A stretch of 64,000 nt of DNA from Actinacidiphila rubida (GTDB lineage: Bacteria > Actinomycetota > Actinomycetes > Streptomycetales > Streptomycetaceae). How positions within the stretch are numbered: the first letter of the stretch is position 1; every line of letters begins with the position of its first letter. The stretch spans positions 1-64,000 of the forward strand of contig NZ_FODD01000022.1 of assembly GCF_900110255.1 (NCBI RefSeq). Direction: 5' to 3'. Shown in pieces: positions 42,589 through 47,784 of the stretch. The position numbers and the translations under genes were made by a program. The notes under the pieces were generated by a model, which saw nothing but the letters and a program-made list of their open reading frames with translations, was not told the DNA's origin and did no database searches.

Positions 42589-43914
42589 ATGACCAGCGCC
42601 CCCTCACGCCACACCGCACGCGGGCCGCTGAGCCGCATGCCCACCTGGGCGAACCGCAACTTCCAGCTCCTCGTCTCCGCGTCGTTCATCAGCGGCCTGG
42701 GCAACTCCGGGGCGACCATCGCCGCCGCATACGCGGTGATCGACGACGGCGGCAGCGCGACCGACGTCGGCGTCGTGGCCGCCGCGCGCACGCTGGCGAT
42801 GGTGGTCTTCCTGCTGATCGGCGGAGCGGTCGCGGACCGCATTCCGCGGCAGCGGGTCATGGTCGCCGCCAACGGCCTCAACGCCCTGTCGCAGGGCCTG
42901 TTCGCGCTGACGGTCCTGACCGGTCACCCGCAGCTGTGGCAGATGGCCGCGCTGACCGCGGCCGGCGGCACGGCGCAGGCGTTCTTCTCCCCCGCCTCGC
43001 AGGGCCTGGTGATGACGACCGTCGATCCCGCGCACGCGGGCAAGGCGTTCTCGGTGTTCCGGCTCGCGACCAACGGCGCGAACATCGGCGGCGCGGCGCT
43101 CGGCGGCGCGCTCATCGCGGCCGTCGGCCCCGGGTGGGTGCTGGCCGTCGACGCGGTCGGCTTCGTGGTGGCGGGCGCGCTGCGCGCCCTGATGTCGGTC
43201 GAGGAGGCGGCCCGGGCGGAGACGGGCGGGATCGTGCGGGATCTGCGCGAGGGCTGGCGCGAGTTCGTCTCGCGGTCCTGGCTGTGGGGCATCGTCGTGC
43301 AGTTCTCGATCGTCAACGCCATGACGACCGCGGGCGAGGCCGTCTACGGTCCCCTGGTCGCCCGCGACCATCTCGGCGGGGCCGGACCCTGGGGTCTGGC
43401 CCTGGCCGCGGGCGGGGCCGGCACGGTCGCCGGCGGGCTGCTGATGATGCGCTGGCGACCGCGGCGCATCCTCCTCACCGGCACCCTCGGGGTCTTCCCG
43501 CTGGCCCTGCCGCTGGTCGCGCTGGCCCTCGCGCTGCCGCTGTGGGCACTCGTGCTGACCATGCTCGCCTCGGGCGTGGCCATCGAGGTGTTCGGCGTCG
43601 GCTGGATGCTCGCCCTGCACCAGGAGATCCCGGAGGACAAGATGTCCCGGGTCTCCGCGTACGACTGGCTCGGCTCGATCGCGGTCATGCCGCTCGGCCT
43701 CGCGCTGGCCGGCCCCGCCGCCGCGGCGTTCGGCCGCACCGAGTCCCTGTGGGGCTCGGCGGTGCTGGTCGTCGCGCTGACCGCGGCCGTCCTCGTGCTG
43801 CCGGACGTGCGCCGTCTGGAGCGCGCGAACACCGTGCCGGATTCGGGCGGCGACGACGCCGGGCACGGACAGGCCGCGCCGCTTCAGCCCGCGGTGCCGC
43901 TCAGCCCACAGTGA
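42589..43914 (+). CDS. MFS transporter
   Basis: 441 aa with about 12 transmembrane helices. Starts NRNFQLLVSASFISGLGNSGATIAAAYAVID; loop GGAVADRIPRQRVMVAAN is motif A. Similar to MFS_3/MdtH-like exporters of unknown substrate. ATG 42589; no clear ribosome site. Its 3' end overlaps the convergent methyltransferase-like gene by 14 bp. Confidence 0.9.
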   Translation: MTSAPSRHTARGPLSRMPTWANRNFQLLVSASFISGLGNSGATIAAAYAVIDDGGSATDVGVVAAARTLAMVVFLLIGGAVADRIPRQRVMVAANGLNALSQGLFALTVLTGHPQLWQMAALTAAGGTAQAFFSPASQGLVMTTVDPAHAGKAFSVFRLATNGANIGGAALGGALIAAVGPGWVLAVDAVGFVVAGALRALMSVEEAARAETGGIVRDLREGWREFVSRSWLWGIVVQFSIVNAMTTAGEAVYGPLVARDHLGGAGPWGLALAAGGAGTVAGGLLMMRWRPRRILLTGTLGVFPLALPLVALALALPLWALVLTMLASGVAIEVFGVGWMLALHQEIPEDKMSRVSAYDWLGSIAVMPLGLALAGPAAAAFGRTESLWGSAVLVVALTAAVLVLPDVRRLERANTVPDSGGDDAGHGQAAPLQPAVPLSPQ

Positions 43915-44779
43915 AGGCGCCGTCCGGCGGTTCCGGCGAAGGCACCGCGTCGGCGTCGCCGACCGGCCTGCCCACGAGGTCCGACAGCGCCGGGCCGGCG
44001 AGCACCCGCGCCGGGAACGGGTCGGCGGCGCACAGCCTGCTCAGCGCGTGCAGCGGCAGCGGACGGCGCGAGGCGGCCAGCACGGCGTTGCCGTAGCGCC
44101 GCCCCCGCAGCACGCCGGGCTCGGCGAGCAGGCACAGGTACGCGTCCGGTCCGCCGAACGCCTCACGCACGGTGGCGAGTTGGCCGCCCAGGAAGGCGAA
44201 CGGGGCGGCGTCGGCGAGATTCGCCACGTAGAGGCCGCCGGGGCGCAGCACCCGGGCCGCCTCCCGCGCGAACTCCACGGACGTCAGGTGCGCGGGCACG
44301 CGGGAGCCGCCGAACACGTCGGCGACGATCAGGTCCGCGCTTGCCGCCGGGGCGTCCGCGAGCCAGGCACGGGCGTCGGCGGTGTGCACGGTGGTGCCCT
44401 CTCCGGCCGGCGGCAGGTACTCGGCGACCAGCGCGGCGAGCCCCCGGTCCGCCTCCACGACCTGCTGCCACGAGCCCGGCCGCTCGTGCGCGAGCCAGCG
44501 TGGCAGGGTCAGCCCGCCGCCTCCGAGGTGCACGGCGTCCACCGGCCCCTCGGGAAGGGCGCTCGTGATCGCGTTCGCGATGCGCCGCACGTACTCGAAC
44601 TCCAGGTTTCCGGGGTCGGCCAGGTCCACGTAGGACTGCGGCGCGCCGTCGACCGTGAGCAGCCAGGCCAGCGGCCGGTCCACGTCCGGCAGCAGCCGCG
44701 CCTCCCCCAGGTCGACCGTCCGGCCCACCGGTACGGCCTCGGCCCAGTCCTCCGCCGCCACCCTGCCCGTTCCGTGCAT
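43901..44779 (-). CDS. Spermidine-synthase-like methyltransferase-fold protein
   Basis: 292 aa from ATG 44779 (the frame also opens at GTG 44818). Rossmann fold: VDAVHLGGGGLTLPRWLAHE is the SAM-type glycine motif, VVEADRGLAALVAEYLP, HTADARAWLADAP, and LIVADVFGGSRVPAHLTSVEF in place of the DAF motif. Resembles polyamine aminopropyltransferase-like proteins lacking the full active site, so the reaction is uncertain. Downstream of the EF-Tu3-like gene on the same strand but separated by a strong terminator. Confidence 0.82.
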   Translation of the reverse strand: MHGTGRVAAEDWAEAVPVGRTVDLGEARLLPDVDRPLAWLLTVDGAPQSYVDLADPGNLEFEYVRRIANAITSALPEGPVDAVHLGGGGLTLPRWLAHERPGSWQQVVEADRGLAALVAEYLPPAGEGTTVHTADARAWLADAPAASADLIVADVFGGSRVPAHLTSVEFAREAARVLRPGGLYVANLADAAPFAFLGGQLATVREAFGGPDAYLCLLAEPGVLRGRRYGNAVLAASRRPLPLHALSRLCAADPFPARVLAGPALSDLVGRPVGDADAVPSPEPPDGAFTVG

Positions 44780-44842
44780 CCCCCCATTCTCCCCCGCGGC
44801 GCCGCCCCTCTCGGCCACGCCTCCGGCCGGCCGGGGAACGCC

Positions 44843-44891: not shown

Positions 44892-46070
<1,179 letters not shown>

Positions 46071-46129
46071 GGGAAGGCTCTTCCTCGGGAAACGGGAGTG
46101 GCGCGATGGCCGGGACCCCTGGCGGGACC

Positions 46130-46175
46130 GACCCTCCCCCTGCGGGGTCCGCCGGTCGTCTGTCCGGGGAGGGTC
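46130..46175 (-). promoter_or_regulatory. Hairpin between leader ORF and EF-Tu3 gene
   Basis: GGGGAGGGTC (46166-46175) and GACCCTCCCC (46130-46139) form a 10-bp perfect stem with a 26-nt loop. The upstream arm, in minus-strand order, contains the leader ORF stop codon, so a ribosome at the end of the leader would block pairing. Candidate attenuator. Confidence 0.5.
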
Positions 46176-46275
46176 AGCGTCGCGCGCCGTCGAAGAAGGC
46201 GTTCCGGGCGTTCCGGGCAGCCTTCTGCGCGGCCGCGGCTGCGGCGGCGTCTGCGAGGAAGGCGATCCGGAACAT
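46174..46275 (-). CDS. Ala-rich 33-aa leader peptide ORF
   Basis: Starts ATG 46275 and ends TGA 46174-46176. The product [20 protein letters not shown], then [13 protein letters not shown], has 14 alanines, seven of them consecutive. No good Shine-Dalgarno is visible, and another ATG lies 11 bp upstream in a different frame, so expression is uncertain. Its placement, 103 bp before the EF-Tu3 start and ending inside a hairpin arm, suggests a regulatory leader. Confidence 0.4.
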
Positions 46276-46476
46276 GAGGCGATCATGGCGTCCGGACGCG
46301 CCGGCCGTCCAACGGTTTATCCCCGGCCACCTGTTCGGTTCGCGCTGATCCGGGACCGTTCAGGCTGTTCGGGCCGATCAGGTCGCTTCGAGCCGGTTCG
46401 AGCCGGCCAGGGCGCCGCGTCGGCCGGTCCGGGGGTTGGCAGTGCAGCCGCCGCCCTGACGTCATCTCGTGGTGAT
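46276..46476. other. Divergent promoter region of EF-Tu3 and MFS genes
   Basis: No gene supported. TAAACC on the minus strand (about 46319-46314) is a possible -10 for the EF-Tu3 transcript. A tandem TTCGAGCCGG repeat lies near 46387. Confidence 0.35.
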
Positions 46477-46533
46477 GTGCCGGAACCACCGGCGTGCGAG
46501 AATTTGTTCCGCGAGTGAACTTAGGCACTCGCG
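46477..46533 (+). promoter_or_regulatory. Short ORF and hairpin before MFS exporter gene
   Basis: GTG 46477 opens a 13-codon ORF (MPEPPACENLFRE) ending TGA 46516-46518 inside the hairpin CGCGAGTG (46510-46517)/CACTCGCG (46526-46533). Either a translational attenuator or an operator palindrome for the exporter gene 40 bp downstream. Confidence 0.4.
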
Positions 46534-46572
46534 CTCCGCTCCCGCCTCCGTCCCCACAGATGAGGAACCTTC

Positions 46573-47784
46573 ATGCCCTTGGCCATCCTGGCCCTGGCGG
46601 TCAGCGCCTTCGGCATCGGCACCACCGAGTTCGTGATGATGGGACTGCTGCCCGACGTCGCGCACAATCTCGGCACGTCGGTGCCGACCGCCGGCTATCT
46701 CGTCTCCGCCTACGCCCTCGGCGTCGTGGTCGGCGCGCCGCTGCTCACCGCACTCGGCGCGCGGATCCCCCGCAAGCGGATGCTCCTGCTGCTGATGGGC
46801 CTGTTCACCGTCGGCAACCTGGCGTCGGCCCTGGCCCCCGGCTACGCCACGCTGCTGGCCGGACGCTTCCTCGCCGGGCTCCCGCACGGCGCGTTCTTCG
46901 GCGTCGGCGCCGTCGTCGCCTCCCGCCTGGTCGCCGAGGACCGCAGGGCGCGGGCGGTCGCCGCGATGTTCCTCGGCCTGACCGTCGCCAACATCGTCGG
47001 CGTCCCCGCCGCGACCTTGCTCGGGCAGCACCTGGGCTGGCGGGCCACCTTCGTGGTGGTGTCCGTGATCGGCCTGCTGGCGCTCGGCGCGCTCGCGGCC
47101 CTGGTGCCGCACCTGCCCGCCGAGGAGCACACGGGCATCACCCACGAACTGCGCGCGCTGCGCGAGCCGCAGGTGCTGCTCGGCCTGCTCACCGCGGTCT
47201 TCGGCTTCGCCGGGGTGTTCGCCGTCTACAGCTACCTGGCCTCGATGATGACCGAGGTCACCGGCTTCGCGGAGTCCTCGGTCACTCTGCTCCTGGCCCT
47301 GTTCGGCATCGGCATGACGCTGGGCGCGCTGGCCGCCGGGCCGCTCACCGACCGGGCGCTGCGGCCCACGCTCTACGGGTCGCTCGCCGCCCTCGCCGTG
47401 GTGCTGGTCGGCTTCCACTACGCGGCCGGCTCCAAGGTCGCGGCGCCGATCGCGGTGGTCGTCCTTGGCGCGGTCGGCTTCCTGACCACCACCCCGCTCC
47501 AGATGCTGGTGATGAACAAGGCGCGGCGGGCGCCCACCCTGGCCTCCGCGTCCAACCACTCCGCCTTCAACCTCGCCAATGCGGGCGGCGCGTGGCTGGG
47601 CGGCGCGGCCATCGCCGCCGGCTGGGGCTGGACGTCACCCGCGCTCGTCGGTTCCGTGCTGGCCGTGGTCGGCCTGGCGATCGCGGTGACCGCGGGCGTT
47701 CTGGACCGCCGCGCCCCGCAGACCGCGTCGGCGGTCGTCGCCACGAGTACGCGCAAGGCGCACGAAGGGGTCGCGGCCGAATAG
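46573..47784 (+). CDS. MFS drug exporter (CmlR/AraJ-like DHA1)
   Basis: 403 aa, 12 transmembrane helices. The N-terminus LAILALAVSAFGIGTTEFVMMGLLPDVA and FLAGLPHGAFFGVGAVVAS closely resemble the streptomycete chloramphenicol exporter type (CmlR) and AraJ-like DHA1 transporters; LGARIPRKRMLLLLMGLF is motif A. ATG 46573 follows GAGGA at 46562-46566. Probably exports a drug; substrate not known. Divergent from the EF-Tu3 gene, with a short ORF and hairpin upstream. Confidence 0.9.
   Translation: MPLAILALAVSAFGIGTTEFVMMGLLPDVAHNLGTSVPTAGYLVSAYALGVVVGAPLLTALGARIPRKRMLLLLMGLFTVGNLASALAPGYATLLAGRFLAGLPHGAFFGVGAVVASRLVAEDRRARAVAAMFLGLTVANIVGVPAATLLGQHLGWRATFVVVSVIGLLALGALAALVPHLPAEEHTGITHELRALREPQVLLGLLTAVFGFAGVFAVYSYLASMMTEVTGFAESSVTLLLALFGIGMTLGALAAGPLTDRALRPTLYGSLAALAVVLVGFHYAAGSKVAAPIAVVVLGAVGFLTTTPLQMLVMNKARRAPTLASASNHSAFNLANAGGAWLGGAAIAAGWGWTSPALVGSVLAVVGLAIAVTAGVLDRRAPQTASAVVATSTRKAHEGVAAE

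Follow-up and report, generated by a model that had tools for sequence, protein, structure and literature searches.

An alanine-rich leader ORF ending inside a conserved pseudoknot upstream of tuf3, a probable ribosome-gated control element of a backup EF-Tu in Streptomycetaceae

Several described leader systems of Actinobacteria share part of their architecture with the region upstream of tuf3, and the nearest among them, as far as the accessible portion of its description goes, is the LEU element of leuA (PMC1262725). Both combine a leader peptide rich in a single amino acid with a conserved pseudoknot, and neither is a classical attenuator. In the LEU element it is the codon run that base-pairs with the Shine-Dalgarno sequence, whereas the tuf3 element carries the leader stop codon within a pseudoknot stem, and the two further differ in the gene (tuf3), the amino acid (alanine) and the presence of a WblC-type promoter. 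The combination of leuA with a run of leucine codons by which a LEU element is recognised is also lacking, since, chance matches aside, what follows the loci described here is an EF-Tu gene or an EF-Tu-like frame. A second relative is the uORF attenuator of whiB7/wblC, likewise a uORF in a gene linked to WblC/WhiB7, and wblC is said to respond to inhibition of translation (PMC11550727, available part). The leader peptides of S. lividans (leuL, trpL, thrL, metL, ilvL, alaL; PMC8079986) are similar in that several are leaderless, they are biased in amino-acid composition, and some have hairpins without a U-tract; unlike these, tuf3 is not among the eight listed, the string 'tuf' is absent from the main text of that paper, and its accessible text does not mention a pseudoknot. 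Finally, the leaderless polycysteine short ORFs of mycobacteria, known here by title, are also rich in one amino acid and called attenuators, but are responsive to cysteine. A description of the tuf3 leader element was not found in the searchable literature, within which papers naming tuf3 and subscription papers were covered in part, and this is no proof of absence.

The window analysed here is a stretch of 64,000 nt from Actinacidiphila rubida (NCBI RefSeq assembly GCF_900110255.1, contig NZ_FODD01000022.1, positions 1 to 64,000). An initial annotation, made from the letters alone, had proposed a 33-codon ORF with 14 Ala codons, seven of them consecutive, whose stop codon lies inside one arm of a 10-bp hairpin about 60 nt upstream of an EF-Tu start codon. 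Reading of the minus strand confirmed the ORF and its composition, the position of the TGA within the arm, and the distance to the ATG (Table 1). The downstream gene product (P0002) is an EF-Tu, scoring 560.9 bits against an NCBIfam EF-Tu equivalog cut-off of 522.4, and shares 61% identity with the genome's other EF-Tu. Matches to this EF-Tu3 (E up to 1e-165) occur in 25 of 35 genomes of the window genus and in 181 of 297 genomes of its family. In the accessible part of PMC12309360, whose reference list includes titles by van Wezel (1995) and Olsthoorn-Tieleman (2007), tuf3 is described as expressed under stress only and EF-Tu3 as GE2270A-resistant. For S. coelicolor, tuf3 (SCO1321) has been reported as bound and activated by WblC (PMC7157823, seen in part), in a paper whose main text does not contain the word 'leader'.

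Table 1. Features of the tuf3 locus, in positions of the 64,000-nt window
Feature	Position	Strand	Remark
WblC-type box, degenerate (GATAAAC), and -35-like TTGGAC	46307..46321	-	ATAAAC aligns with GAAAAC of relatives
-10-like box CATGAT	46282..46287	-	6 nt upstream of leader ATG
Ala-rich leader ORF, 33 codons	46275..46174	-	TGA 46176-46174 within pseudoknot stem; in frame at 118/118 loci
Hairpin PL within leader ORF, GCCGC AGCC GCGGC	46232..46245	-	codons 11-15 of window leader
S1 5' arm GACCCUCCCC	46166..46175	-	overlaps leader stop codon; 10 bp, all Watson-Crick
S1 3' arm GGGGAGGGUC	46130..46139	-	partner of 46166-46175
S2 5' arm GGACCCC	46144..46150	-	within S1 loop; partner 46113-46119
S2 3' arm GGGGUCC	46113..46119	-	closes H-type pseudoknot
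tuf3 (EF-Tu3, 392 aa)	44892..46070	-	start ATG at 46070

Two neighbouring genes were recorded in passing. On the same strand, 3' of tuf3, lies a spermidine-synthase-like gene (43901-44818). Upstream lies a divergent MFS gene (46573-47784), whose top NCBIfam match, Cmx/CmrA, reaches 326.5 bits, below the cut-off of 400. At 46490-46530, between tuf3 and this MFS gene, a motif resembling TAAGTTCAC..GCGGAACAAAT may serve the MFS gene as an operator; with up to three substitutions it is found at 12 of the 118 loci compared below, all in the window genus.

Of 123 tuf3 upstream regions obtained for comparison, 118 are distinct, and these cover 118 of the 181 matching genomes. A strict pattern recovered leader and stem in 72 of the 123, while the other 51, when printed, had the same layout with variant stems; a looser pattern captured 117 distinct regions, to which L084 was added by hand. 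The check first suggested for this locus, conservation upstream of tuf3 in other streptomycetes, thus has a clear outcome, leader and hairpin both being present in all 118 distinct regions. Leader lengths take 29 distinct values between 29 and 81 codons by a start rule of our own, the start-finding patterns having mis-called some starts (e.g., L026, L043 and L115), and in every leader the frame stays open from the ATG to a TGA that overlaps the stem. Conservation is seen at the N-terminus (MFRYAF and variants) and at the C-terminus, which reads (D/G)GAR(S/R) in most loci, with a variable segment between them. An open frame by itself was rejected as evidence, because the same span is free of stops in the second frame at 114 of 118 loci and in the third at 78 of 118. 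A chance ORF is nevertheless ruled out by the presence of the leader at 118 of 118 loci read together with a frame-specific codon bias, and the comparison indicates that leader and stem are real features, beyond chance. A frame that is not conserved, or a stem lacking compensatory changes, had been named in advance as grounds for abandoning the idea; instead the frame is kept and compensatory stem changes are seen.

The codon bias concerns alanine. Ala content of the leaders ranges from 24 to 56% (median 38%), and in the variable segment (110 distinct) 815 of 1853 codons (44%) encode Ala in frame, as against 55 and 51 of 1743 (3%) in the other two frames. A replicate set from named genomes (65 leaders located in 70 loci, among the matches listed, whose species may overlap those of the first set) gave 443 of 1070 in frame versus 22 and 25 of 1005 out of frame. 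Codon choice is distinctive too, GCA making up 529 of 1795 leader Ala codons versus 31 of 2463 in 56 tuf3 genes. These counts argue that Ala codons in the leader are under frame-specific selection, although the run of seven is not itself conserved. In two other families the proportion of Ala is lower, with 7 of 34 codons in a leader of family f20 (L177) and 7 of 28 in one of family f19 (L213). This weaker enrichment means that Ala sensing cannot be universal, and it may be confined to the window family and some of its relatives. The conserved C-terminus of the leader, (D/G)G(A/V)xx-stop, is likewise a feature of which Ala sensing gives no account.

The fate of the seven-Ala run is tied to a small hairpin, PL, formed within the leader ORF. 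One partner of its closing pair, X-X', is a first codon position and the other a second, which makes any change to the pair non-synonymous. At the 117 loci where PL could be located (L124, with three extra loop bases, being the one of 118 that was not), 111 closing pairs are formed, as T-A in 63, C-G in 30, A-T in 14, G-C in 2 and T-G in 2, and six are unpaired, among which two G-G cases may be misplaced windows. All four Watson-Crick types therefore occur, each change altering the protein, under a search pattern that fixes the inner pairs and leaves X and X' free. Counting distinct sites, 26 of 29 are paired, versus a mean of 14.5 and a maximum of 22 over 10,000 shuffles, which ignore kinship; T-A and C-G closing pairs are each found in more than one genus. 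On this pattern PL is kept by paired substitutions that change amino acids, a case in which the protein sequence follows an RNA base pair. The run in the window is the G-C version of PL, whereas relatives of the same genus with A-T read DATAAAVA, and others read SAVADA or PAVAGA. The run is thus present as originally described, yet as one outcome of PL pairing it accompanies an RNA hairpin and is not conserved in its own right.

The absence of a clear ribosome site for the leader had been counted against it at the outset, and a Shine-Dalgarno sequence is indeed not seen upstream of the window leader. At 118 of 118 loci, however, the ATG chosen as leader start is preceded at 6 or 7 nt by a -10-like nAnnnT, and putative leaderless translation from such a start would account for the missing site. 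This arrangement agrees with what is expected of a leaderless mRNA, namely a -10 box 4-9 nt before the start and no Shine-Dalgarno sequence; at several loci an additional ATG in the same frame overlaps the -10. The distance from the -10 to the transcription start averages 6.3 nt in S. lividans, where leaderless transcripts make up 17% of the total (PMC8079986, available part). Further upstream, GAAAWY occurs between -55 and -30 of the leader ATG at 88 of 118 tuf3 loci versus 3 of 590 background 25-mers; it is missing at 30 of 118, and the window's own WblC-type box has no match to it. GAAAWY is given in PMC7157823 (accessible part) as the WblC motif, 3 nt before the -35, as compared with a gap of 2 nt between GAAAWY and TTCGAC in the loci described here. 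Since S. coelicolor is absent both from the loci read and from the matches listed, the link to the S. coelicolor WblC data rests on conservation across the group.

Folded as a single sequence the region is unexceptional (z -1.62, with 14 of 200 shuffles folding equally well), and because it does only modestly better than shuffles, the element was tested by comparison instead. A set of 113 distinct rows has 99.7% of its cells paired in stem S1, which corresponds to the 10-bp hairpin, and two of the pairs have changed on both sides; in 24 sequences drawn from four families, three pairs show both-side changes. The loop of S1 contains the 5' arm of a second stem, S2, whose 3' arm lies 10-13 nt downstream of S1. 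Its seven pairs hold at all 116 loci placed, two of them with both-side changes, while at 78 of 116 an eighth pair, on the outside, is not formed; this count drops L021 and L128 as misfits to the pattern (L128 with one broken pair by eye), and the pattern itself restricts the letters seen. Between families the sequence of S2 differs, reading GAGCCCC:GGGGCUC in f20, GGUGACCCG:CGGGUCACC at most f19 loci and GAACCG:CGGUUC in f3. The longest Watson-Crick helix that each locus forms with its own tail was compared with those of cross-family swaps and of shuffled tails. Three loci stand apart in this comparison: L226, misplaced by the pattern, was scored against pairing, L229 was left out, and L234 is ambiguous. 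In the window family (f1) a helix of at least 7 bp is found at 98 of 118 loci, versus 566 of 5900 swaps and 137 of 2940 shuffled tails; in f19 a helix of at least 8 bp at 16 of 21 loci versus 17 of 1050 swaps; in f20 7 bp at 6 of 6 loci versus 18 of 300 swaps; and in f3 6 bp at 2 of 2 loci versus 24 of 100 swaps at 6 bp or more. S2 accordingly behaves, in these alignments, as a stem that changes sequence between families while staying complementary. Two crossing stems, a joint of 3-4 nt and a third loop of 10-13 nt together make an H-type pseudoknot, in which S1 and S2 would form simultaneously. The hairpin of the initial annotation therefore exists and is conserved, not as a standalone structure but as one stem of this pseudoknot.

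Across the 118 sequences there is almost no variation at several letters of the loops and linkers, as would suit a pseudoknot acting as the binding site of a protein such as EF-Tu or a ribosomal factor, with translation of the leader being secondary; protein binding has also been proposed for the LEU element (PMC1262725, available part). Such a role is highly improbable in view of the change in S2 sequence between families, the overlap of stop and stem kept at 118 of 118 loci, and the frame-specific selection of Ala codons, which requires translation. Programmed frameshifting or readthrough at the pseudoknot was set aside by eye, since in the window no slippery heptamer precedes the stem and no spacer separates the stop from it.

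The geometry was originally likened to attenuation, and the in-frame leader, the stop within the stem, the compensatory changes and the selection of Ala codons all bear out the likeness, whereas a U-tract terminator was not found. In classical transcription attenuation, the structure or an alternative hairpin would terminate transcription before tuf3 unless a ribosome stalled at the Ala codons. There are precedents for this in S. lividans, where leaderless leader peptides are found ahead of genes for aminoacyl-tRNA synthetases and for biosynthesis and a U-tract terminator is lacking in some cases (PMC8079986), and in the regulator wblC, described as under uORF attenuation (PMC11550727), in the accessible parts of both papers. 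However, terminator-like sites number zero between positions 45400 and 48000 of the window, and in the stretches from S2 to tuf3 TTTT occurs at 0 of 118 loci and five T in eight bases at 7 of 118. By contrast, locus L196 of the same genome, which we take to be its wblC from the AT-hook RGRPRK, has by eye a uORF of about 118 codons with AGGAGG in front of it and a hairpin with a T-rich tract, while at the tuf3 leader neither a Shine-Dalgarno-led uORF nor a U-tract terminator is seen. The promoter box of L196, GAAAAATAGTTTGCG, resembles that of tuf3, also by eye and without a GAAAWY match. Classical attenuation is thus an unlikely account, and the want of a U-tract terminator of the kind seen at wblC brings in U-less or Rho-dependent termination, translational control and RNA stability as candidates.

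Translational control would have the pseudoknot and a base stem, pairing the last leader codons with sequence by the tuf3 Shine-Dalgarno, limit 30S access until a ribosome on the leader relieves it. The leuA LEU element offers a parallel in its leader peptide, pseudoknot and base stem with the Shine-Dalgarno sequence (PMC1262725, accessible part), and at many loci of genus g9 the leader-end CGAAGC complements a GCUUCG just 5' of the tuf3 Shine-Dalgarno (by eye, uncounted). No complement of this type was seen by eye at loci of genera g3 and g14 or in the window, which leaves the base stem a candidate at part of the loci, and the spacing between S2 and the start differs greatly from locus to locus. 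Translational control of this kind is decidedly unlikely. Sequestration of the Shine-Dalgarno at a fixed distance is excluded by the spacing between S2 and tuf3, with a median of 38 and a maximum of 136 nt (the minimum, 14, comes from a mis-called GTG in L043 and is about 32 nt by eye).

Outside the window the element is recognisable well beyond its genus. Rfam 15 gave no covariance-model match at E up to 5 (window positions 45900-46600), and a covariance model built on S1 scored a single convincing copy in the window genome at 66.3 bits, the next reaching 23.3 with E 0.5. At the thresholds used, and with fast search filters that may lose weak copies, 116 of 147 genomes at the level of the order have one match each, 32 of 296 match at the level of the class, again once per listed genome, and 15 of 396 match a broader model at the level of the phylum. 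Two class-level matches (L183 and L184) proved to be chance on inspection, with no EF-Tu downstream, and four phylum-level matches at 26-30 bits were taken as chance, not read individually. In f20, 6 of 35 genomes match, with EF-Tu downstream at 6 of 6 loci; in f19, 22 of 120 genomes (15 of 68 genera), with EF-Tu downstream at 20 of 22 loci; and at the level of the order L166 and L167 precede an EF-Tu gene of family f3, so that the element lies upstream of EF-Tu genes in three further families. In named genomes at least 120 stretches match, and among the 80 listed 70 have an EF-Tu within 330 nt; five of the ten other listed loci were read, and EF-Tu follows at L237 and L298, an EF-Tu-like start at L251 and L292, and neither at L240. 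The matches listed with EF-Tu include two Nocardia loci, one Kibdelosporangium and S. scabiei.

Some of these copies are of interest in themselves. Three order-level loci (L163, L164 and L165, of genomes G145, G073 and G268, which have no listed EF-Tu3 match) carry a degenerate copy of leader and pseudoknot in front of short EF-Tu-like frames, about 200-250 codons long and similar to the N-terminal portion of EF-Tu, which may represent a tuf3 in decay or in reduced form. By eye, a gene similar to the spermidine-synthase-like one also lies 3' of these frames, and the pairing may be conserved. The leader and pseudoknot of the Nocardia loci (L247 and L257) closely resemble their counterparts in genera g3 and g14, and tuf3 could have been transferred horizontally together with its leader.

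On balance, the region upstream of tuf3 is probably a ribosome-gated cis-regulatory RNA of a drug-resistant backup EF-Tu. Transcription from the WblC-type promoter would start at the leader ATG or 1-2 nt off, and the leader would be translated leaderless; the ribosome would traverse PL and a stretch rich in Ala codons, among them GCA, which tuf3 itself seldom uses, and terminate at the UGA lying in S1, the first stem of the pseudoknot. A ribosome has a footprint on its mRNA, and one terminating at a stop codon should open a stem that overlaps it. Given the constant overlap of stop and S1, a terminating ribosome should cover the 5' arm of S1 and open the pseudoknot, and a ribosome slowed upstream, by low Ala-tRNA, poor EF-Tu function or a drug, should leave it folded. 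Expression of EF-Tu3 would be permitted in the folded state, with an output in transcription or in translation. The direction of this switch is suggested by the stress-only expression of tuf3 and the GE2270A resistance of EF-Tu3 (PMC12309360, accessible part), which favour slow translation of the leader as the permissive condition.

What the ribosome would report on in this ribosome-gated element may be EF-Tu itself, a reading that we advance tentatively and as the lesser possibility. The Ala- and GCA-rich leaderless ORF would read the supply of EF-Tu ternary complex, and upon inhibition or starvation of the housekeeping EF-Tu, the pseudoknot with its embedded stop would fold and the drug-resistant EF-Tu3 would be turned on. 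If true, the cell would be monitoring an elongation factor and replacing it. The tuf3 element is in any case a well-bounded RNA element with a stop codon built into a pseudoknot, and it could explain how a resistant spare EF-Tu is kept quiet until need arises in actinomycetes, some of which make antibiotics directed at EF-Tu.
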